From the NCBI RefSeq assembly GCF_964019385.1, contig NC_088645.1, forward strand, positions 45,423,729-45,487,728: a stretch of 64,000 nt of DNA. The letters run 5' to 3'. Below are positions 2,050 to 58,887 of this stretch, piece after piece; position 1 is the stretch's first letter, and every line of letters begins with the position of its first letter. The DNA is from Sycon ciliatum. Its lineage: Eukaryota > Porifera > Calcarea > Leucosolenida > Sycettidae. Position numbers and translations under genes: made by a program. The notes beneath the pieces are model-generated. The model was not told the DNA's origin, searched no databases, and saw only the letters and a list, made by a program, of their open reading frames with translations.

Positions 2050-3129
2050 GAATAGGGCAGACCATCCTGGACGAAAAGTGGTACGACCAGGGTCGTACTG
2101 GTTGTGCCGCGTATGATGCCCGTGCCGGCACTCACTGACTGACTTCAGCTAGTTGGCGCACATAGCTTATGTTCTCAGTGATTTTTTAAAAGTTAAAGCT
2201 GTTTGACCAGTTTGTGTTTCAATGGCTGTCACGACTTAAAGTCACGTCATGTGCTATTGCCCTCTTTTGTAAGCATGCATGCAATTCGAAGAGCAAAACG
2301 CCTTTGATTTTTTCCTAAGCATGCATGCAGGCCGAAGCATTTTTGTCATTGAGAACTCAAAACACAATACACAGCCACTTGGTGTTTTCGCCTAAATTAC
2401 CATCAGCTTGCCAACCCGGCCGACCCTTAGCTTAATGCTGTTTCTATTGCTTTAAGAGGCGACGTCAACAGGAGAATTTGCATCAAAGTTTCGGTTGGGG
2501 TCACTCCACATTCGGCACCTTATAATCCATACCCATCAACGAATGTGTTTAAAACTTTCAATATTTTTGGGCAACTCGACTGGTTCTATTGAAAAGGAAA
2601 GACTGGGGCTATGAATCACTCTCCAACGAGCGTAGTGCTTTGAGCATAGCTCACAGAATGTCCGGGCCACTTTCCTCTATTCTTTACTGAAACCCCGGAG
2701 TACTTCTGGATAAGGTGATACCCACCTTAGATTGGAATATCGCTGGGTCGTTCGTGAAGTCCAGTGGTTCGCCTGGGTTGGCGACTTTGTGGCAGTGGTC
2801 AATGCCAGAACTTGTGTGTGCAAGCTGTTTATTCTAAAGCGTTCCACTCGGTACCGACGAGTCTGAAATAGGACACTTTCCTCCACCCGTTCAGGGCAAG
2901 GGTGATGATTTCACTGCACTTCTTTCAAAATTTGAAGTGTCGGCTACAATAATATGGAGTGACAAGTGGACTAAGATACAGATATGCATCCTCCACTGTT
3001 TTTGGAATCGTATGCTTTCCTTGCGTATGATCGTCTGTCAGACTCTGACAAAAGGTAACCGACAATAGTGGCATCATTACACGACCTGAGTAAAGAAAAT
3101 TGAAGTCACGTGTTTGTTGATGGGTCATC
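2050..3129. other. No gene recognised
   Basis: Mixed-composition DNA with two copies of AAGCATGCATGCA near 2270 and 2320. No ORF shows a known motif, and no exon of the ankyrin type is present. Confidence 0.5.
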
Positions 3130-3133
3130 TTAA

Positions 3134-3994
3134 AGGGGAAGTTAAGGCAAAAATTAAAATTTCACCAGTTGTAGTCTTCGGGGTGCTGAGTCGAATGGTC
3201 TTGGTCCGAGAAAGCTGAGACGCTCCCTTCCTACTTGAATCCCAATCGAACTCGCGCACTCCCACCGAAACTGGGTGACTGCGCCCTACTAGATGGGGAT
3301 TTGTATGCAAAATGTCACTAAAAGCGCCATTTCGTTCTTATAAAAGCACGGATGACCACGATTGGCCCATATGTTGTAGTCTTTTGGACGCTGAGTCGAC
3401 TGGTTTTGGTCCGAAAAGGCTGCGATGCAGCGTTCCTCCTTTATTCCCAATCGAACATGGTTGAACAAGCGGTCACGTGCTCCTGGGTGCCCAAATCACC
3501 TGGTCACCACGCCAGCAGGCGACAACTTTCACACCAAGGTTCAACTCGAGTTCAACTCGAGTGACAGGACTGCACCCAAAAAAGGTCAAACAGGCTAGTG
3601 AGTTGTACCCTGCAGGCACAGTGACCAGCTGACTGGTGTACGCAGGAGCACGTGACCGCTTGTTCAACCATGTTCGATTGGGAATACAGGAGGAACGCTG
3701 CATCGCAGCCTTTTCGGACCAAAACCAGTCGACTCAGCGTCCAAAAGACTACAACATATGGGCCAATCGCGGTCATCCGTGCTTTAATAAGAACGAAATG
3801 GCGCTTTTAGTGGCATTTTGAATACAAAACCCCATCTAGTAGGGCGCAGTCACCCAGTTTCGGTGGAAGTGCGCGAGTTCGATTGGGATTCAAGTAGGAA
3901 GGGAGCGTCCCAGCTTTCTCGGACCAAGACCATTCGACTCAGCACCCCGAAGACTACAACTGGTGAAATTTTAATTTTTGCCTTAACTTCCCCT
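3134..3994. mobile_element. Foldback (palindromic) DNA element at TTAA
   Basis: Left half (to about 3560) and right half are near-perfect reverse complements over about 425 bp. The ends read AGGGGAAGTTAAGGC and its complement. TTAA flanks both ends (3130-3133 and 3995-3998), as expected for a TTAA-specific insertion, although the palindromic end makes the exact border ambiguous. There is no transposase. ORFs on both strands are mirror copies of one another. Confidence 0.8.
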
Positions 3995-4133: not shown

Positions 4134-4809
4134 CTGTGAAGAAACATACAGAAAAGAAACAGTGCTACTCTTGGAGTGTCCTTTAAAGCAGCTGTAAATG
4201 ATGCAATACAACCCCAACGATAATTTTATTCGTGGACAAACAAAAGAGGGTGGGAAAGGGCTGCAATGCCTTGGCGCAAAAGCCCACAGCATGATCTGGT
4301 AGCATCTAAGCCGACTGCTCAAGGGATGTGGTCGATATGTACAGGTGGTCTCCTTATCAAATGTCTTTTGACTGTAAATAGCACCGTTTGGCCCCAATTG
4401 TTACTGAGTGGTCGTTCTGACAGTGTTACCGAATCATCGGAAACCAGCTCAACAAGCTCCAACACGTTCAGCTTTGCCAATCAACTAAGGCTACCGTGGG
4501 CTGGAAGTGCGGTGGGTGATGTCGTTTGCTGTGCAGAACTCAGTGAAAGCTTCGCTGGCAAACTCAGGACAATTGTCTGTAACCAAGGTGGAAGGAAACC
4601 ACGCTCGGCACAGATTCGGTGCAGATACTAGACGAAAGCAATCGAGGTGGTGGCAGTCAGGGGAATGATATCAAGGTAACACATTAGATAATGTACGAGC
4701 AGATATTGTGGTATACATGTCATGTAATGTGAATCAAGAATAGAACACCTCCACAACAATGCCATATGCCTGCACTTCATTGCACTGCTTACTGAAACAG
4801 TCAACTTAC
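4134..4809. other. Presumed intron between ankyrin exons A and B
   Basis: No other exon or mobile element is recognised here. The last 150 bases (from about 4660) carry the repeated intron motif ACATTAGATAATGTAC..CATGTCATGTAATGTGAATC that precedes almost every ankyrin exon in the window. Confidence 0.5.
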
Positions 4810-6058: not shown

Positions 6059-6346
6059 ATAAAAACAGAGAGATCTTTATTAAACAAGGCATCGTGTATT
6101 TTGTAAGTTTACATTCGGTGAGCTATACTAATCGAATATTGCATGCTGGGCATTATCCACTTGACCAGCGCCTAACTGATGACCTGCGTTTGAGCTGCAC
6201 CTCATTTTCATATGAAAGACTGGAATGTGACGTTATGGAAGAGTCCGCCATCACCATACACTCATTACACTACATTAGATAATGTACAGGGGCAATATGC
6301 TTTGGTTCTGCAAGAGTGCTCAATGCCTGATTCAGGCAGAGCGGTG

Positions 6347-6893
6347 TACACAAAGGCACACAATGAAAACCTTGGCAAATTAATTCCGTTGTGACTTAGA
6401 GTTTCATGGCTGAACCAATCATCAGACAACGATAATGGAATAGGAGACAGCGCTGGTATATCTAAGTGGAGAGAGGTGTGATAATACGATAGCGAGAGGA
6501 GTAATCGCGTGAATGTATACAGGGACAGGCTATTTTAGAGGCAGATGCAGTAGGCGCAGGTCTAGCACTAACAAGTACGCGCTTAATCTCGCTCACACAC
6601 CACACACACACACACATACTAACACGCACACACATAGTAACACCCACACACATACACACATACACGCTCACATTAACACACACACACACATACACCCACC
6701 CACAACACCCTAACTTGCACACGGGCGCACGCACACACAGACACCCACCCACCCACAACACCCTAACTCGCACACGCACAAACACACGCACACACGCATA
6801 TACACACACCTATAGACACATGTCCACACGCATACACAGGCATCTGTGTTCGTATGACAAATCTAAGCGCTCACAAACTCCTGCAATCACGCG
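6347..6893 (+). repeat. Left long inverted terminal repeat of the Penelope-like element
   Basis: Reverse complement of 9002-9570. It contains a unique outer half (CACAAAGGCACACAATG onward) and an inner (CA)n/(CACACG)n-rich half, and ends in CCTGCAATCACGCG. The start of the long ORF lies inside it, so the first 60 or so residues (Thr/His rich) are terminal-repeat translation. Confidence 0.9.
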
Positions 6894-8973
6894 CCTCAAG
6901 AACATCCCAGCGCCCTCGGAGAAGGAATACACCAAGAGCCTCCTGAGGCGAGTCGAGGAGGTCATAAAACGAATGCGTTGGAAAGCTCTCTTCACCCTGA
7001 AAGGCGCCAACGAAGATAGCGCCAAGAAGACGTACGGCTTCAAAACCGTGAACTGCCCACCCCAGATTGAAGAACTCAAGGCATTCGAGAACGCAATGTA
7101 TAATATGGTTGAGCATATTACGTTCCGCCGGGCTTCTAACCAGCTTCAAGAGCAGATGAAGAACGACGTGAAGAAGATCAGAGAGTGTGATGATATAGTG
7201 GTACCAGCGGACAAGACAAGAAACTTGTACCGAGTATCAGTCCCGCAGTATGAAAAGCTGCTACATGACAACGTGACGAAGCAGTACAAACTCGCCCCAG
7301 GCACCGACTACACAACGATTAATGCCGAAGCCCGCGATATAGCTGCCGATCTGCACCTGGATGACCGAATGGAATGTCTGGGCAAGGCACAAGCATTCGT
7401 CACATTAAAGGATCATAAAGCCGACTTCCATGACAAGCTGCAATGCAGGCTGATTAACCCTGCCAAGTTCGAAATAGGCGTCGTAAGCAAATCCATACTG
7501 GATGGTGTTATCGGCCCCATGCGGAGCAGCGTATGTGAGAATCTGTGGCAGAACATGCAAGCGGTCATTGAGTGGTTCAAGGGCATTGAAGACAAGCCGC
7601 GGTACACCTTCGTCGTGTTCGACATCGTCGAGTTTTACCCCAGCATAACGAAAGACCTTCTGCTGGATGCCCTGTCGTACGCCGGGACGCACGCTCCAAT
7701 GTCCAAGAAGGACATTGAGACGATACTGCACGCACGTAATTCATTGTTTTTCGACGGCGGCAAAGCATGGATGAAGAAGGAGAAGGACGGGTCATTCGAC
7801 GTAACAATGGGGTCGTACGACGGCGCAGAAGCCTGCGAGCTTGTTGGGGCTTTAATCCTCAGCAAACTCCGTCCACTCCTGGGCAACCAGTGCGTGGGTC
7901 TTTACCGTGACGACGGACTAGCGATAATGAAGGACGCCACGGGTCATGATGCCGACCGCACGCGCAAACAGATCATACAGATATTCCAAGCACACGGCTT
8001 AAAAATAACAATCGAAACCAACAAGAAGATCGTCGACTACTTGGATGTGACCCTGAATCTCGCCACTGGAACATTCCAACCATACAGGAAACCGAATAGT
8101 ACACCCCTGTACGTCGATGTGCGGTCCTGTCACCCACCGCAGGTGCTGAGACAAATACCCATTGGCATCAACAAGAGGCTGCAACGTATCTCATGCAATG
8201 AGGAAGTGTTCAACGATGCTAAAACGTTATACAAGGACGCACTGGCCTTAAGTGGCCACCCGAAAACCATGACATACAAGGATGAACCGAGCAGCAAGAA
8301 GAAAAAAGCGAAGAAAGGGCGCAGCCGCGACGTCATCTGGTTTAACCCGCCGTACAGTACCACGGTCAAAACCAACGTTGGCGCAAAGTTTCTATACCTC
8401 GTCAAGAAACACTTCCCTGAAGGGTCGGCGCTACACAAGGTGTTTAACAAGAACACAACAAAAGTAAGCTACAGCTGTATGAAGAACGTAGCGTCGATTA
8501 TCAAAGGGCACAATGCTGCAAAACTTCACTCGCGACCGCCAGTTGTGCCATGCAATTGTCGGGTCAAGGCGTCGTGCCCCCTCAACGGTGACTGCCAGTC
8601 TTCCGACGTCGTTTACGAGGCGCATGTAGCATCCAACGAAGTTAAGACCTACGTCGGCATGACAGCTACCACATTCAAGCAGCGCTACAACAAACACACT
8701 TCGGACTTCCGAAATGAAAAGTACGCCGCATCGACTAAGTTGTCCAAGCACATCTGGGATCTGAAAAACGAGAACCGCGGATTCGACATCAGATGGGAGA
8801 TCAAGGATAGAGCACCTTCATGCAGTAACATCAGCAAGAAGTGTGGCCTATGCTTAACCGAAAAGTTCCACATCCTGAAAGCTTCAAAAGCTACCTCCCT
8901 AAACAAGAGAAGTGAGCTGGTATCTAAATGCCCTCACCAGCGCAAGTTTCTGCTGGCCACCCCTATTACATAG
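6715..8973 (+). CDS. Penelope-like reverse transcriptase with C-terminal GIY-YIG endonuclease
   Basis: The ORF is 752 residues. Residues 1-45 come from the CA-rich terminal repeat, so a start at M36 (base 6820) or later is more plausible. The RT core has motif A FDIVEFYPS (D303), motif C YRDDG (397-401) and a DYLDVTL block (441-447) typical of Penelope-like RTs. A basic linker (about 525-540) is followed by a Cys cluster (C613, C615, C621, C627). The GIY-YIG nuclease comes next, with VYE at 633, TYVG at 645, R657 and E716. RT plus C-terminal GIY-YIG is the defining domain pair of Penelope-like elements: the nuclease nicks the target and the RT primes on it. The ORF is intact, with TAG at 8971. 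Confidence 0.9.
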   Translation: MHTGARTHRHPPTHNTLTRTRTNTRTHAYTHTYRHMSTRIHRHLCSYDKSKRSQTPAITRLKNIPAPSEKEYTKSLLRRVEEVIKRMRWKALFTLKGANEDSAKKTYGFKTVNCPPQIEELKAFENAMYNMVEHITFRRASNQLQEQMKNDVKKIRECDDIVVPADKTRNLYRVSVPQYEKLLHDNVTKQYKLAPGTDYTTINAEARDIAADLHLDDRMECLGKAQAFVTLKDHKADFHDKLQCRLINPAKFEIGVVSKSILDGVIGPMRSSVCENLWQNMQAVIEWFKGIEDKPRYTFVVFDIVEFYPSITKDLLLDALSYAGTHAPMSKKDIETILHARNSLFFDGGKAWMKKEKDGSFDVTMGSYDGAEACELVGALILSKLRPLLGNQCVGLYRDDGLAIMKDATGHDADRTRKQIIQIFQAHGLKITIETNKKIVDYLDVTLNLATGTFQPYRKPNSTPLYVDVRSCHPPQVLRQIPIGINKRLQRISCNEEVFNDAKTLYKDALALSGHPKTMTYKDEPSSKKKKAKKGRSRDVIWFNPPYSTTVKTNVGAKFLYLVKKHFPEGSALHKVFNKNTTKVSYSCMKNVASIIKGHNAAKLHSRPPVVPCNCRVKASCPLNGDCQSSDVVYEAHVASNEVKTYVGMTATTFKQRYNKHTSDFRNEKYAASTKLSKHIWDLKNENRGFDIRWEIKDRAPSCSNISKKCGLCLTEKFHILKASKATSLNKRSELVSKCPHQRKFLLATPIT

Positions 8974-9001
8974 ACAGCTATGACCGCTGCGGGTTTTTTG
9001 A

Positions 9002-9281
9002 CGCGTGATTGCAGGAGTTTGTGAGCGCTTAGATTTGTCATACGAACGCAGATGCCTGTGTATGCGTGTGGACATGTGTCTATAGGTGTGTGTATATGCG
9101 TGTGTGCGTGTGTTTGTGCGTGTGCGAGTTAGGGTGTTGTGGGTGGGTGGGTGTCTGTGTGTGCGTGCGCCCGTGTGCAAGTTAGGGTGCTGTGGGTGGG
9201 TGTATGTGTGTGTGTGTGTGTGTGTTAGTGTGAGCGTGTATGTGTGTATGTGTGTGGGTGTTACTATGTGCGTGCGTGTTA

Positions 9282-9325
<44 letters not shown>

Positions 9326-9570
9326 AGCGAGATTAAGCGCGTACTTGTTAGTGGTAGACCTGCGCCTACAGCATCTGCCTCTGAAATAGCCTGTCCCTGT
9401 ATACATTTACGCGATTACTCCTCTCGCTATCGCATTATCACACCTCTCTCCACTTAGATATACCAGCGCTGTCTCCTATTCCATTATCGTTGTCTGATGA
9501 TTGGTTCAGCCATGAAACTCTGAGTCACAACGGAATTAATTTGCCAAGGTTTTCATTGTGTGCCTTTGTG
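9002..9570 (+). repeat. Right long inverted terminal repeat of the Penelope-like element
   Basis: Begins CGCGTGATTGCAGG just 28 bp after the RT stop codon, runs through a (GT)n-rich section and ends CCTTTGTG at the target copy. It differs from the left repeat mainly in microsatellite length. Confidence 0.9.
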
Positions 9571-9702
9571 TACATTAGATAATGTACAGGCAGGTATTGT
9601 GGTATACATGTCATGTAATGTGAATCAAGAATAGAACACCTCCACAACACAATGTTGTATGCCTGCACTTCATTGCACTGCTTACTGAAACAGTCAGCTT
9701 AC

Positions 9703-10558: not shown

Positions 10559-11404
10559 CCGTACTAACGCGATTAGAGCCCTCTCCTGAATAGTGCCCTC
10601 TCTTGAATAGTGCCCTCTCTTGAATAGTGCCCTCTCTTGAATAGTGCCCTCTCCTGAATAGTGCCCTCTCTTGAATAGTGCCCTCTCTTGAATAGTGCCC
10701 TCTCTTGAATAGTGGCCTCACTTGAATAGTGCCCTCTCTTGAATAGAGCCCTCTCCTGAATAGTGCCCTCTCCTGAATAGTGCCCTCTCTTGAGTAGTGC
10801 CCTCTCTTGAATAGTGCCCTCTCTTGAATAGTGCCCCACCCCCCCCCCCCGGCCGGGGTTTGTAACCCAGCGCATGTGACACAGCGCATGTGCAAGTTTG
10901 GTATTCGTTTGCTAATGTAACGTTACTTGTCCATCTCCTTGCACTGGTGATTTCAGGATCAAATCGCAGTTCTTGTTGCGGCTGAGTCGTGATAGTTTAC
11001 AGTAAACTTCCGGGTCTGTTATTCTTTGCTTTCTTTGTTTGTTTTTTATGCTTGATGGGGAAAATGTACCAGAACTGAAAACATAGTGCCCTCTCCTGAA
11101 TAGTGTACTCTCTTGAATAGTGCACTCTCTTGAATAGTGCCCTCTCTTGAATAGTGCCCTCTCTTGAATAGTGCCCTCTCTTGAATAGTGCCCTCTCTTG
11201 AATTGTGCCCTCTCTTGAATAGTGCCCTCTCTTGAATAGTGCACTCTCTTGAATAGTGCCCTCTCTTGAAGAGTGCCCTCTCTTGAATAGTGCCCTCTCT
11301 TGAATTGTGCCCTCTCTTGAATAGTGCCCTCTCTTGAATAGTACCCCATTTGTGAAGAACGTTGAAAAAACATTGCCTCAGGGGCACTAATCACGCGAGT
11401 ACGG
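10559..11404. mobile_element. Foldback-type element with 17 bp subterminal repeats, copy 1
   Basis: Ends are CCGTACTAACGCGATTAGAGCCC and the complement of CCGTACTCGCGTGATTAGTGCC. Two arrays of the 17-mer TAGTGCCCTCTCTTGAA (about 10577-10850 and 11084-11345) flank a 230 bp core that includes CCGGCCGGGG and GTAACGTTAC. Six copies exist in the window with different array lengths. The Arg-Glu-Gly-rich ORFs in it come from the stop-free array on the minus strand and are not genes. Confidence 0.75.
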
Positions 11405-11971
11405 AAAGTTCAGGATCAGAAAAGATATATAAAAAACCATACTAGTAGCACTGAAACAAACAAAATGCTTTAATTATCGTATGTTTTAAATATAAAAGGA
11501 TTAACAAACATTCTCTTCAGGGAGTAGCCAAGATCTCTTCCAAAGAGGCTCCCATCTAGCTAGGTTCTCCATGCCAAGTATCAAATCACTGTGGGGAAAC
11601 ACATCTTTTAAGCTCTCACTCGTCTTGATATAAGCAGAGAGATCGCTTTAAATCAAAGAATTGTGGATTTTGTAAGTTTACATGTGGTGAGCTACACTAA
11701 TCGAATATTGCAAGCTGTACATCATCCACTTGACCAGCACCTAACTGATGACCTGAGTTTGAGATGCACCTCATTTTCACATGAAAGACTGGAATGTGAC
11801 GTTATGGAAGAGTCTGCCATCACTGTACACTCATTACAATACATTAGATAATGTACAGGCAGATCTTGTGCTATACATGTCATGTAATGTGAATCAAGAA
11901 TAGAACACCTCCACAACACAATGTTGTATGCCTGAACTTCATTGCACTGCTTACTGAAACAGTCAACTTGC

Positions 11972-12115: not shown

Positions 12116-13266
12116 CGGCGCCGAAGAACGGAGCGCCGAAGGACGGAGCGCCGAAGAACGGAGCGCCGAAGGACGGAGCGCCGAAGGACGGAGCGCCGAA
12201 GGACGGAGCGCCGAAGGACGGAGCGCCGAAGGACGGAGCGCCGAAGAACGGAGCGCCGAAGGACGGAGCGCCGAAGGACGGAGCGCCGAAGGACGGAGCG
12301 CCGAAGGACGGAGCGCCGAAGAACGGAGCGCCGAAGAACGGAGCGCCGAAGGACGGAGCGCCGAAGGACGGAGCGCCAAAGGATGGAGCGGCGAAGAACG
12401 GAGCGGCGAAGGACGGAGCGCCGAAGAACGGAGCGGACGGAGCGCCGAAGGACGGAGCGCCGAAGGACGGAGCTCCGAAGGACGGAGCGCCGAAGGACGG
12501 AGCGCCGAAGGACGAAGCGCCGAAGGACGGAGCGCCGAAGGACGGAGCGCCGAAGGACGGAGCGCCGAAGGGCGGAGCGCCGAAGGGCGGAGCGCCGAAG
12601 GGCGGAGCGCCGAAGGGCGGAGCGCCGAAGGACGGATCGCCGAAGGACGGAGCGCCGAAGGACGGATCGTCGAAGGACGGAGCGCCGAAGGACGGAGCGC
12701 CGAAGGACGGAGCGCCGAAGGACGGAGCGCCGAAGGACGGAGCGCCGAAGGACGGAGCGCCGAAGGACGGACCGCCGAAGGACGGAGCGCCGGAGGACGG
12801 AGCGCCGGAGGACGGGGCGCCCAAGAACGGTGCGCCCAAGAACGGAGCGCCCAAGAACGAGCGCCCAAGAACGGAGGGCCCAAGTACGGAGCGCCCAAGA
12901 ACGGAGCGCCCAAGTACGGAGCGCCCAAGAACGGAGCGCCCAAGTATGGAGCGCCCAAGACCGGAGCGCCCAAGAACGGAGCGCCCAAGAACGGAGCGCT
13001 CAAGTACGGAGCGCCCAAGACTGGAGCGCCCAAGAACGGAGCGCCCAAGGACGTAGCGCCCAAGGACGGAGCGCCGAAGGACGGAGCGCCGAAGGATGAA
13101 GCGCCGAAGGTCGGAGCGCCGAAGGACGGAGCGCCGAAGGACGGAGCGCCGAAGGACGGAGCGCCGAAGGACGGAGCGCCGAAGGACGGAGCGCCCAAGA
13201 ACGGAGCGCGCAAGAACGGAGCGCCCAAGTACGGAGCGCCAAAGAACGGAGCGCCCAAGAACGAAA
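12116..13266. repeat. 15 bp GC-rich minisatellite array 1
   Basis: About 77 copies of a 15-mer, in two main variants: GGAGCGCCGAAGGAC, and GGAGCGCCCAAGAAC with its AAGTAC form. The variants occur in blocks. The unit has no stop codon in most frames on either strand, which produces long ORFs in five or six frames (for example GAPKD, ERRRT and AEGRS peptides). It lies immediately upstream of ankyrin exon D. Related arrays are at 44348 and 56165. Confidence 0.95.
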
Positions 13267-16208: not shown

Positions 16209-16440
16209 ATAAAAACAGAGAGATCGTCATAACACAAGGAATTGTGTATTTTGTAAGTTTACATATGGTGAGCTACACTAATCGAATATTGCATGCTGGG
16301 CATTATCCACTTGACCAGCGCCTAACTGATGACCTGCGTTTGAGCTGCACCTCATTTTCACATGAAAGACAGGAATGTGATGTTATGGAAGAGTCTGCCA
16401 TCACCGTACACTCATTACACTACATTAGATAATGTACAGG

Positions 16441-19400
16441 GGCAATATGCTTTGGTTCTGCAAGAGTGCTCAATGCCTGATTCAGGCAGAGCGGTGTACA
16501 CAAAGGCACACAATGAAAACCTTGGCAAATTAATTCTGTTGTGACTTAGAGTTTCATGGCTGAACCAATCATCAGACAACGATAATGGAATAGGAGACAG
16601 CGCTGGTATATCTAAGTGGAGAGAGGTGTGATAATACGATAGCGAGAGGAGTAATCGAGTGAATGTATACAGGGATTGGCTATTTCAGAGGCAGATGCAG
16701 TAGGCGCAGGTCTAGCACTAACAAGTACGCGCTTAATCTCGCTCACACACCACACACACACACACACATACTAACACGCACACACATAGTAACACCCACA
16801 CACATACACACATACACGCACACACTAACACACACACACACATACACCCACCCACAACACCCTAACTTGCACACGGGCGCACGCACACACAGACACCCAC
16901 CCACCCACAACACCCTAACTCGCACACGCACAAACACACGCACACACGCATATACACACACCTATAGACACATGTCCACACGCATACACAGGCATCTGCG
17001 TTCGTATGACAAATCTAAGCGCTCACAAACTCCTGCAATCACGCGTCTCAAGAACATCCCAGCGCCCTCGGAGAAGGAATACACCAAGAGCCTCCTGAGG
17101 CGAGTCGAGGAGGTCATAAAACGAATGCGTTGGAAAGCTCTCTTCACCCTGAAAGGCGCCAACGAAGATAGCGCCAAGAAGACGTACGGCTTCAAAACCG
17201 TGAACTGCCCACCCCAGATTGAAGAACTCAAGGCATTCGAGAACGCAATGTATAATATGGTTGAGCATATTACGTTCCGCCGGGTTTCTAACCAGCTTCA
17301 AGAGCAGATGAAGAACGATGTGAAGAAGATCAAAGAGTGTGATGATATAGTGGTACCAGCGGACAAGACAAGAAACTTGTACCGAGTATCAGTCCCGCAG
17401 TATGAAAAGCTGCTACATGACAACGTGACGAAGCAGTACAAACTCGCCCCAGGCACCGACTACACAGCGATTAATGCCGAAGCCCGCGATATAGCTGCCG
17501 ATCTGCACCTGGATGACCGAATGGAATGCCTGGGCAAGGCACAAGCATTCGTCACATTAAAGGATCATAAAGCCGACTTCCATGACAAGCTGCAATGCAG
17601 GCTGATTAACCCTGCCAAGTTCGAAATAGGCGTCGTAAGCAAATCCATACTGGATGGTGTTATCGGCCCCATGCGGAGCAGCGTATGTGAGAATCTGTGG
17701 CAGAACATGCAAGCGGTCATTGAGTGGTTCAAGGGCATTGAAGACAAGCCGCGGTACACCTTCGTCGTGTTCGACATCGTCGAGTTTTACCCCAGCATAA
17801 CGAAAGACCTTCTACTGGATGCCCTGTCGTACGCCGGGACGCACGTTCCAATGTCCAAGAAGGACATTGAGACGATACTGCACGCACGGAAGTCATTGTT
17901 TTTCGACGGCGGCAAAGCATGGATGAAGAAGGAGAAGGACGGGTCATTCGACGTAACAATGGGGTCGTACGACGGCGCAGAAGCCTGCGAGCTTGTTGGG
18001 GCTTTAATCCTCAGCAAACTCCGTCCACTCCTGGGCAACCAGTACGTGGGTCTTTACCGTGACGACGGACTAGCGATAATGAAGGACGCCACGGGTCATG
18101 ATGCCGACCGCACGCGCAAACAGATCATACAGATATTCCAAGCACACGGCTTAAAATAACAATCGAAACCAACAAGAAGATCGTCGACTACTTGGATGTG
18201 ACCCTGAATCTCGCCACTGGAACATTCCAACCATACAGGAAACCGAATAGTACACCCCTGTACGTCGATGGGAGGTCCTGTCACCCACCGCAGGTGCTGA
18301 GACAAATACCCATTGGCATCAACAAGAGGCTGCAACGTATCTCATGCAATGAGGAAGTGTTCAACGATGCTAAAACGTTATACGAGGACCCACTGGCCTT
18401 AAGTGGCCACCCGAAAACCATGACATACAAGGATGAACCGAGCAACAAGAAGAAAAAAGCGAAGAAAGGGCGCAGCCGCGACGTCATCTGGTTTAACCCG
18501 CCGTACAGTACCACGGTCAAAACCAACGTTGGCGCAAAGTTTCTATACCTCGTCAAGAAACACTTCCCTGAAGGGTCGGCGCTACACAAGGTGTTTAACA
18601 AGAACACAACAAAAGTAAGCTACAGCTGTATGAAGAACGTAGCGTCGATTATCAAAGGGCACAATGCTGCAAAACTTCACTCGCGACCGCCAGTTGTGCC
18701 ATGCAATTGTCGGGTCAAGGCGTCGTGCCCCCTCAACGGTGACTGCCAGTCTTCCGACGTCGTTTACGAGGCGCATGTAGCATCCAACGAAGTTAAGACC
18801 TACGTCGGCATGACAGCTACCACATTCAAGCAGCGCTACAACAAACACACTTCGGACTTCCGAAATGAAAAGTACGCCGCATCGACTAAGTTGTCCAAGC
18901 ACATCTGGGATCTGAAAAACGAGAACCGCGGATTCGACATCAGATGGGAGATCAAGGATAGAGCACCTTCATGCAGTAACATCAGCAAGAAGTGTGGCCT
19001 ATGCTTAACTGAAAAGTTCCACATCCTAAAAGCTTCAAAAGCTACCTCCCTAAACAAGAGAAGTGAGCTGGTATCTAAATGCCCTCACCAGCGCAAGTTT
19101 CTGCTGGCCACCCCCATTACATAGACAGCTATGACCGCTGCGGGTTTTTTGACGCGTGATTGCAGGAGTTTGTGAGCGCTTAGATTTGTCATACGAACGC
19201 AGATGCCTGTGTATGCGTGTGGACATGTGTCTATAGGTGTGTGTATATGCGTGTGTGCGTGTGTTTGTGCGTGTGCGAGTTAGGGTGTTGTGGGTGGGTG
19301 GGTGTCTGTGTGTGCGTGCGCCCGTGTGCAAGTTAGGGTGCTGTGGGTGGGTGTATGTGTGTGTGTGTGTGTGTGTGTGTTAGTGTGAGCGTGTATGTGT

Positions 19401-19707
19401 GTATGTGTGTGGGTGTTACTATGTGTGTGCGTGTTAGTATGTGTGTGTGTGTGTGGTGTGTGAGCGAGATTAAGCGCGTACTTGTTAGTGCTAGACCTGC
19501 GCCTACAGCATCTGCCTCTGAAATAGCCAATCCCTGTATACATTTACGCGATTACTCCTCTCGCTATCGTATTATCACACCTCTCTCCACTTAGATATAC
19601 CAGCGCTGTCTCCTATTCCATTATCGTTGTCTGATGATTGGTTCAGCCATGAAACTCTGAGTCACAACGGAATTAATTTGCCAAGGTTTTCATTGTGTGC
19701 CTTTGTG
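16441..19707 (+). mobile_element. Penelope-like retroelement with long inverted terminal repeats, copy 2
   Basis: Same target (TACATTAGATAATGTACAGG at 16421-16440 and 19708-19727) and layout as copy 1. Because host flanks are also shared, this copy arose by segmental duplication, not by a new insertion. Its RT gene is frameshifted. Confidence 0.85.
16663..19124 (+). pseudogene. Penelope-like RT/GIY-YIG gene, frameshifted copy
   Basis: The frame open from 16663 to 18159 contains RT motifs A (FDIVEFYPS) and C (YRDDG). The frame from 18192 to 19124 contains the rest of the RT, the basic linker, the Cys cluster and GIY-YIG. The break is one missing A in an A-run near 18153-18157, where copy 1 has five As and this copy four. 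Otherwise the protein is nearly identical to copy 1. The truncated RT ends just before the DYLDVTL block, so this copy should be inactive unless the ribosome slips at the A-run. Confidence 0.85.
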
Positions 19708-19839
19708 TACATTAGATAATGTACAGGCAGGTATTGTGGTATACATGTCATGTAATGTGAATCAAGAATAGAACACCTCCACAACACAATGTTGTATGCC
19801 TGCACTTCATTGCACTGGTTACTGAAACAGTCAACTTAC

Positions 19840-56164: not shown

Positions 56165-58176
56165 GCCCAAGAACGGAGCCCGGCGCTCCGTTCTTGGGCG
56201 CTCCGTACTTGGGCGCTCCGTACTTGGGCGCTCCGTTCTTGGGCGCTCCGTACTTGGGCGCTCCGTTCTTGGGCGCTCCGTTCTTGGGCGCTCCGTTCTT
56301 GGGCGCTCCGTACTTGGGCGTTCCGTTCTTGGGCGCTCCGTACTTGGGCGCTCCGTTCTTGGGCGCTCCGTGCTTGGGCGCTCCGTGCTTGGGCGCTCCG
56401 TGCTTGGGCGCTCCGTTCTTGGGCGCTCCGTTGTTGGACGCTCCGTTCTTGGGCGCTCCGTTCTTGAGCGCTCCGTTCTTGGGCGATCCGTTCTTGGGCG
56501 CTCCGTACTTGGGCGCCCCGTTCTTGGGCGCTCCGTCCTTCGGCGCTCCGTCCTTCGGCGCTCCGTCCTTCGGCGCTCCGTTCTTGGGCGCTCTGTCCTT
56601 CGGCGCTCCGTCCTTCGGCGCTCCTTCCTTCGGCGCTCCGTCCGTCGGCTCTCCGTCCTTCGGCGCTCCGACCTTCGGCGCTCCGTCCTTCGGCGCTCCG
56701 TCCTTCGGCGCTCCGTCCTTCGGCGCTCCGACCTTCGGCGCTCCGTCCTTCGGCGCTCCGTCCTTGGGCTCCGTCCTTGGGCGCTCCGTTCTTGGGCGCT
56801 CCGTTCTTGGGCGCTCCGTACTTGGGCGCTCCGTTCTTGGGCGCTCCGTACTTGGACGCTCCGTTCTTGGGCGCTCCGTTCTTGGGCGCTCCGTACTTGG
56901 GCGCTCCGTTCTTGGGCGCTCCGTACTTGGGCGCTCCGTTCTTGGGCGCTCCGTACTTGGGCGCTCCGTTCTTGGGCGCTCCGTTCTTGGGCGCACCGTT
57001 CTTGGGCGCTCCGTTCTTGGGCGCTCCGTACTTGGGCGCTCCGTTCTTGGGCGCTCCGTCCTTCGGCGCTCCGTCCTTCGGCGCTCCGTCCTTTGGCGCT
57101 CCGACCTTCGGCGCTCCGTCCTTCGGCACTCCGTCCTTCGGCGCTCCGTCCTTTGGCGCTCCGACCTTCGGCGCTCCGTCCTTCGGCGCTCAGTCCTTGG
57201 GCGCTCCGTTCTTGGGCGCTCCGTTCTTGGGCGCTCCGTACTTGGGCGCACCCTTCTTGGGCTCTCCATACTTGGGCGCTCCGTTCTTGGGCGCTCCGTT
57301 CTTGGGCGCTCCGTTCTTGGATGCTCCGTACTTGGGCGCTCCGTTCTTGGGCGCTCCGTTCTTGGGCGCTCCGTACTTGGGCGCTCCGTTCTTGGGCGCT
57401 CCGTTCTTGGGCGCTCCGTTCTTGGGCGCTCCGTTCTTGGGCGCTCCGTACTTGGGCGCTCCGTTCTTGGGCGCTTCGTTCTTGGGCGCTCCGTCCTTCG
57501 GCGCTCCGTCCTTCGGCGCTCCGTCCTTCGGCGCTCCGTCCTTCGGCGCTCCCTCCTTCGGCGCTCCGTCCTTCGGCGCTCCGTCCTTCGGCGATCCGTC
57601 CTTCGGCGCTCCGCCCTTCGGCGCTCCGTCCTTCGGCGCTCCGCCCTTCGGCGCTCCGTCCTTCGGCGCTCCGTCCTTGGGCGCTCCGTTCTTGGGCGCT
57701 CCGTACATGGGCGCTCCGTTCTTGGGCGCTCCGTTCTTGGGCGCTCCGTTCTTGGGCGCTCCGTTTTTTAGCGCTCCGTACTTGGGCGCTCCGTTCTTGG
57801 GCGCTCCGTCCTTCGGCGCTCCGTCCTTCGGCGCTCCGTCCTTCGGCGCTCCCTCCTTCGGCGCTCCGTTCTTCGGCGATCCGTTCTTCGGCGCTCCGCC
57901 CTTCGGCGCTCCGTCCTTCGGCGCTCCGTCCTTCGGCGCTCCGTCCTTCGGCGCTCCCTCCTTCGGCGCTCCCTCCTTCGGCGCTCCGTCCTTCGGCGCT
58001 CCGTTCCTCGGCGATCCGTTTTTCGGCGCTCCGCCCTTCGGCGCTCCGTCCTTCGGCGCTCCGCCCTTCGGCGCTCCGTCCTTCGGCGCTCCGCCCTTCG
58101 GCGCTCCGTCCTTCGGCGCTCCGCCCTTCGGCGCTCCGTCCTTCGGCGCTCCGCCCTTCGGCGCTCCGTCCTTCGG
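56165..58176. repeat. 15 bp GC-rich minisatellite array 3 (2 kb)
   Basis: About 134 units of GGCGCTCCGTTCTTG/GGCGCTCCGTCCTTC-type 15-mers, the reverse complement of arrays 1 and 2. Blocks of the TTCTTGG variant alternate with blocks of the TCCTTCG variant, giving a higher-order pattern. It lies directly upstream of the GC-donor ankyrin exon at 58224. The 747- and 689-codon ORFs over it exist only because the unit lacks stops. Confidence 0.96.
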
Positions 58177-58223
58177 CGCCGGACAGTACTGTATGGCCAA
58201 TTCCATTTGCTCGCAACCTTCAG

Positions 58224-58325: not shown

Positions 58326-58887
58326 GCAAGTTGACTGTTTCAGTAAGCAGTGCAATGAAGTGCAGGCATACGACATTGTGTTGAGGAGTTGTTCTATTCT
58401 TGATTCACATTACATGACATGTATACCACAAGATCTGCCTGTACATTATCTAATGTAGTGTAATGAGTGTACGGTGATGGCAGACTCTTCCATAACGTCA
58501 CATTCCAGTCTTTCATGTGAAAATGAGGTGCAGCTCAAACTCAGGTCATCAGTTAGGTGCTGGTCAAGTGGATGATGTACAGCTTGCAATATTCGATTAG
58601 TGTAGCTCACCATGTAAACTTACAAAATCTACAATTCTTTGATTTAAAGCGATCTCTCTGCTTATATCAAGACGAGTGAGAGCTTAAAAGATGTGTTTCC
58701 CCACAGTGATTTGATACTTGGCATGGAGAACCTAGCTAGATGGGAGCCTCTTTGGAGGAGATCTTGGCTGCTCCCTGAAGAGAATGTCTGTTAATCCTTT
58801 ATATCTAAAATATACGATTATTAAAGCAATTTGTTTGTTTCAGTGCTACTAGTATGGTTTTGTATATCTTTTCTGATCCTGAACTTT

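Follow-up and report, generated by a model that had tools for sequence, protein, structure and literature searches.

In LINE-1 twin priming, two target-primed cDNAs are joined head-to-head, and the second of them starts at variable internal places. For Penelope-like elements (PLEs), target duplications, tandem copies, truncation and hammerhead motifs have already been described (PMC3846280, PMC8969392, PMC7761336), as have inverted pseudo-long terminal repeats (pLTRs) with a short extension (PMC3846280, PMC8969392). In this study we describe an additional endonuclease-positive PLE, found in a 64,000-nucleotide stretch of the Sycon ciliatum genome (contig NC_088645.1, positions 45,423,729 to 45,487,728; hereafter the window), together with its copies elsewhere in the same genome. 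We consider it probable that both strands of a staggered cut prime separate cDNAs on element RNA of the same sense, at two start sites, and that these cDNAs are then joined.

The Penelope elements Pen2a and Pen2 of Adineta vaga (PMC3846280) share with the window element an open reading frame (ORF) for reverse transcriptase (RT) and GIY-YIG endonuclease, inverted pLTRs, tandem and 5'-truncated copies, a tail on one pLTR (31 bp in A. vaga) and short target duplications (theirs of 8-10 bp). They differ in having pLTRs of about 200 bp, with an inverted pLTR often lying beside a direct one; a hammerhead is not mentioned in the available text, which reads the junction palindromes as self-priming. 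Poseidon of Anolis carolinensis (PAc; PMC11167929) resembles our element in its internal starts near the ORF start, in a hammerhead in the same region (a putative one in our element) and in its tail, which is the stretch between two start sites. The PAc protein, a predicted dimer, starts internally and cuts and extends both strands, as we propose for the window element (PMC11167929). In PAc, by contrast, the start sites fall 111-118 bp into the ORF, and the element is described as tandem, the accessible part of the report stating no end-pairing rule.

The window element is 3,280 bp long (6291-9570) and sits within exact 20-bp direct repeats (TACATTAGATAATGTACAGG; 6271-6290 and 9571-9590), recognised by sequence comparison and from unoccupied paralogous sites. 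Since the adjoining bases differ on either side, the duplication is exactly 20 bp long. These coordinates and the long inverted repeats agree with a preliminary description of the locus. The ORF (LKNIP to stop, 6894-8973, plus strand) encodes, as judged by domain folds, an RT related to telomerase RT and a C-terminal GIY-YIG endonuclease. These folds, and a layout as described for Penelope elements (PMC3846280), support the Penelope-like identity given in that description.

The inverted arms, at 6346-6893 on the minus strand and 9002-9570 on the plus strand, are about 94% identical, differ mainly in the length of CA/GT runs, and are pLTRs; the right one begins 28 bp downstream of the stop codon, as had been noted. 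The arrangement had also been called symmetric and unusual. It is not symmetric, as 55 bp between the left duplication and the left arm (6291-6345, minus strand) have no counterpart at the right end, and the published inverted pLTRs with short extensions speak against its being unusual. Alignment of copies places these 55 bp 3' of the pLTR in the sense direction, as a tail carried by the left pLTR only and including TTGAGCACTCT at 6313-6323 (minus strand). In tandem copies the sense sequence continues past the tail into a leader of 93 nt that contains the start codon (METIRQVSLGYS-LKNIP). As for the earlier claim that the ORF starts in the left repeat, the frame does run into the left arm, being open from 6505, but the start present in tandem copies, METIRQVSLGYS-LKNIP, is absent: the left arm is joined at LKNIP, and the window copy therefore lacks its first codons.

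In a search of the 538-Mb genome, 40 of 4,213 candidates were scored, and all of the 38 further loci among the matches listed were analysed; L025 is a repeat of L024, and a single duplicated copy accounts for L037-L040. Copies were compared on a sense unit of ORF, pLTR and tail. A minus segment meets a plus segment head-to-head in 21 of the 38 loci, and L023 is a direct tandem. Thus, the one-off rearrangement that the preliminary description had named as its refutation did not materialise, and inverted termini recur at unrelated sites together with target duplications.

Two kinds of outer end were found. The T end (..GCATATTGCC-TCTGT(G)) lies past the tail, and the N end (..GTGCCTTTG-TG) lies 60 nt before it. 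Among the 39 loci (the 38 and the window), both outer ends are recognisable in 14, one in 20 and none in 5, the latter including L043, whose T end is visible by eye. Each of the 14 two-ended insertions, the window copy included, pairs a T end with an N end, and both orientations occur. There are 44 distinct ends (23 T, 21 N), and single-ended insertions show either kind (9 T, 7 N). The chance of 14/14 T/N pairs is 6e-5 if ends are independent; a random dealing of 28 ends, 14 of each kind, gives 4e-4.

Target duplications of 11-23 bp (median 15) flank 13 of the 14 two-ended insertions. Those of L014, L016 and L042 fall in TAA repeats and are of uncertain length; the remaining ten have an AT content of 83%, that of the window being 52%. 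Beyond the 14, the duplications of L020, L032, L041 and L045 (12-18 bp, with one mismatch in L041) exceed the 95% point of the null, as does that of L023, which lies within a TAA repeat; the 12-bp duplication of L031, with one mismatch, does not, and L013 has a 15-bp duplication by eye. As in other PLEs, we observed 5' truncation, target-site duplications (TSDs) and pLTRs derived from tandem copies (L023 and L002, a relative described below) or inverted ones, with an optional tail.

These observations also bear on other classes of mobile element. DIRS-like retroelements have no TSD (PMC8969392), so the duplications in 13/14 two-ended insertions led us to reject that assignment. A DNA transposon with matching terminal inverted repeats in all copies was rejected as well, given that 14/14 have a tail at one end and none at the other and that arm length varies. 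Long inverted arms and a duplication would also be expected of a cut-and-paste element that has genuine terminal inverted repeats and carries an RT by chance; against this, the ends are unlike, with a tail on one side only, arm length ranges from 6 nt to >2 kb between copies (the second arm of L041 is the hexamer TCTGTG alone), direct tandems exist (L023, L002), and no transposase was seen in the window ORF list. We regard such an origin as vanishingly unlikely.

The inner joints are distinct in 13/13 comparisons (L015 was excluded because its left arm is interrupted), and the arms end 190-2,583 nt apart on the reference. The preliminary description had suggested hairpin-primed or template-jumping replication, and these offsets, together with the unlike ends, do not favour either. 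Self-priming would turn a folded-back cDNA or antisense transcript into a template and so yield a head-to-head inverted repeat. It has been suggested for Penelope copies of A. vaga whose inverted junction bears palindromes (PMC3846280), and the window arms are able to form a long hairpin. Snap-back would nevertheless give near-equal arms, contrary to what all the compared joints display, and it does not account for the constant combination of a tailed and a tail-less end; it is in our view very improbable.

Among the 19 joints inspected (the window and 18 others), 14 have no filler and 5 have 6-14 nt of it. Microhomology of at least 2 nt is found in 8 of the 14 filler-free joints (16% expected; P = 4e-4). 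It also fits template switching, and tandem and head-to-head copies do occur side by side (L011, L012, L014, L015), as might follow from a sense-to-antisense jump by one RT, or from recombination of neighbouring copies, during or after a one-sided insertion. However, one and the same duplication flanks both arms together in 13/14 cases, and neither process predicts that, of two fixed start sites, the far end invariably coincides with the one that the near end does not use. Hence we give this explanation very little weight.

Priming from both target strands, the reading that we prefer, would proceed as follows. The GIY-YIG endonuclease would make a staggered cut in AT-rich DNA, giving a duplication mostly of 13-15 bp and of 20 bp in the window copy, and the 3' end of each target strand would prime reverse transcription on element RNA of the same sense. 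Two internal start sites about 60 nt apart, N (UUUGUG) and T (UCUGUG), would lie between the hammerhead and the start codon, with one target strand starting at N and the other at T. The cDNAs would run back through the pLTR, often into the ORF, over unequal distances, and their head-to-head joining, in many cases across a few nt of microhomology, would yield TSD-tail-pLTR(inverted)-ORF-pLTR-TSD. In the window copy, the T-primed cDNA, as which we read the inverted left pLTR, would have ended just beyond the pLTR, and the N-primed cDNA, which may begin with the tail-less right pLTR, would have reached about codon 12. By eye, the right primer of the window copy ends in ..TGTA and would face UACA in the RNA; the left primer, ..ACAGG, could form four pairs and one G-U with UCUGU; and the adjacent target DNA starts with TA at 18 of the 21 N ends. 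Head-to-head cDNAs are likewise produced by LINE-1 twin priming, with the difference that in our element the two cDNAs start at fixed points close to one region of the RNA.

Comparison with two diverged relatives extends these observations. L001 (3,787 bp, metagenome-assembled genome Cli_8; 49% protein identity) shares with the window element the head-to-head form, its positions 1-1519 being an inverted copy (92%) of 2241-3734, and an ORF that starts at KNIP; contig ends hide its termini. L002 (47% protein identity) is a broken direct tandem and in this differs from the window element. The tandem (L002 2-2248) lies on a scaffold deposited as a Solemya gill symbiont, which is probably host DNA; separately, a Solemya velum gene model (protein P0003) resembles a fusion of partial PLE copies. 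No RT or GIY-YIG match and only weak stray families came from Pfam, queried with the protein and 32 aligned members; nothing relevant was found in the PDB by sequence; and scans of viral contigs, plasmids and phages gave no relative. Of the GTDB contigs, none was matched by the single sequence and two loci were matched by the alignment.

In the stretch between the hammerhead and the start codon, we found a module consisting of UGUG and then GAGCACUC, present twice about 62 nt apart. Counted from the hammerhead core, the window family has UGUG at 72, GAGCACTC at 105, UGUG at 136, GAGCACTC at 167 and ATG at 194. L002 shares this order, with UGUG at 65, GAGCACTT at 96, UGUG at 128, GAGCACTC at 156 and ATG at 181. 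The box is also encoded in one of three frames in 10 of 14 homologues with an N-terminal extension, compared with 2.4% of control stretches, in a post hoc test for which EHS was noticed first and the three frames of GAGCACTC were then chosen; the other 4 of the 14 have no exact box match. We propose that the RNA carries the start-site module twice, with UGUG about 31 nt upstream of the GAGCACUC box, and that each module may seat one RT-endonuclease protomer, which would explain the use of one N and one T site per insertion. The structure, the duplication, the unoccupied sites, the recurrence, the one-of-each ends, the joints and the two modules in two families are observed directly, while the order of priming, the seating of protomers and the pathway of joining are inferences.

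The same T/N rule is predicted by ordered two-step priming, in which the first strand always uses one site and the second the other, as set by the position of the single RNA in the complex and without two protein-binding modules. That single-ended insertions show either kind of end would also agree with it. Since single ends are T about as often as N, though, neither is clearly an obligatory first site, and ordered priming leaves the repeated UGUG-box order at matching positions in L002 unexplained. For these reasons, we consider it unlikely and continue to favour two-strand priming at paired modules.

Several observations do not sit easily with two-strand priming at paired modules. The same RNA stretch holds an extra UGUG, at 62 in the window family and at 31 in L002, and the module of L002 is known from a sequence without known insertion ends. 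A single orientation only is seen in 17 of the 38 loci, meaning that a second cDNA is not always present or recognisable, and L015, although two-ended, has no duplication. When the 5 joints with filler are scored as failures among the 19, the P value for microhomology becomes 0.005. Our sample is also skewed to long copies, because the search listed its best matches. Finally, start sites of PAc in vitro were alike for top and bottom strand (PMC11167929).

A three-stem hammerhead motif (stems I, II and III of 7, 4 and 3 pairs) is present in each arm of both copies of the element in the window, save that stem I of the putative hammerhead has 5 pairs in one arm of copy 2. In copy 1, the motif descriptor places the segment from core to predicted cut at 6393-6425 (minus strand) in the left arm and at 9494-9526 (plus strand; stems 7, 4, 3) in the right arm. 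The descriptor has no match in the window outside the arms and gave 1 match in 60 simulated 64-kb sequences, and, of the 39 loci in this genome, 30 carry the 7-4-3 form. By eye, a similar motif is visible in L002, and L001 has a core truncated by the contig end. As Rfam searches for a hammerhead gave nothing relevant, the hammerhead remains motif evidence; minimal type I hammerheads in PLEs have already been published (PMC7229834, PMC7761336). Hammerhead cleavage as the source of the right end is not supported, because this end lies 44 nt past the predicted cut. We also observed that the three short T arms of L014, L016 and L046 have their stops (S2614, S2615, S2623) in the hammerhead motif, no more than 10 nt apart, a pattern that a halt of reverse transcription at this place could leave.

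The host DNA around the window element is a set of paralogous units. The window holds the 20-bp target in unoccupied form 17 times (14 exact, 2 with one mismatch and 1 with two), and in 15 of the 17 the same host sequence flanks both sides. On the plus strand, pattern matching located these sites at 11840-11859 and at start positions 4680, 14827, 21466, 22563, 23660, 24350, 27298, 36866, 37830, 39430, 42230 and 43860; those on the minus strand are at 58440, 59598, 60697 and 61387. Allowing up to 3 mismatches, the pattern has 23 matches in the window against 0.05 expected, the remaining 6 being the 4 duplications of two filled sites and 2 reverse readings of the palindrome. Because these paralogous sites show the target without the element, 6291-9570 is a genuine, clean insertion and not a chance arrangement. 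The near-palindromic target of the preliminary description does carry the 20-bp duplication; given its presence at 17 unoccupied host sites, the palindrome itself is a host repeat, and it is not required, since other copies sit at unrelated AT-rich sites. A preference for palindromic targets was accordingly dropped.

A second copy lies at 16421-19727 (plus strand), with the same duplication, inner joint and flanks as copy 1; four arm differences are common to both, and its ORF is broken by a frameshift. The two copies differ at 18 of 2,075 positions in the ORF, 31 of 800 in the left flank and 6 of 246 in the right flank. This lower divergence of the ORF raised the possibility of two independent insertions at two paralogues. 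Since 10 of 20 flank differences recur among 15 unoccupied paralogues, we prefer a single insertion that was later duplicated, and the lower divergence of the element would fit flank exchange among paralogues. Elsewhere in the window, frames adjoining the unoccupied targets (4680-61404, both strands) resemble ankyrin repeats by eye. Long tandem arrays of 15-bp and 17-bp units occur at 12118-13263, 56182-58179, 10574-10836 and 11083-11346, and the 15-bp arrays give long open frames on the minus strand.

Animal non-LTR retrozymes share type I hammerheads and tandem units with PLEs and, unlike the window element, are non-coding and short (PMC7229834, PMC7761336). PLEs have been called likely candidates for driving them, which the available text of these papers does not present as demonstrated (PMC7229834, PMC7761336). 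In S. ciliatum we observed a 482-bp retrozyme-like repeat with a canonical hammerhead (L049 4052-5734, equal to L016 1-1534; L051 35-826, equal to L023 5835-6626), which is head-to-head inverted in both loci seen whole. The outer ends, which lie in TAA repeats, map to two sites in the unit (positions 221/198 and 230/190), separated by about 25-40 nt. This repeat has no GAGCACTC box and contains GAGCACTA once only, and it is therefore evidence against box sharing as a general rule. A 240-bp retrozyme-like unit (L015 57-347; L050 3957-4247; L052 1666-1783) contains TTGAGCACTCT, the 11-mer of the PLE tail, twice, with GAGCACTC at unit positions 76 and 155; its partial copy in L052 has a 14-bp duplication.

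More broadly, and tentatively, PLEs in general may integrate by two-site, two-strand priming, with a duplicate module and one protomer per strand, the tail being the inter-module period; this machinery could then also carry retrozymes that share the boxes or the two-ended head-to-head form. We hold this wider reading to be possible, at somewhat less than even likelihood. The one-of-each end rule and the duplicated start-site module look new: we did not find the strict tailed/tail-less pairing or the doubled module stated in the open-licence literature searched, in the parts available, and they may be in print elsewhere. Together, they turn an odd genomic feature into a concrete, testable model of both-strand priming, and the end pattern offers a structural mark by which a role of Penelope machinery in retrozyme movement can be examined. 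If true, one mechanism would account for inverted pLTRs, single tails and retrozyme mobility.

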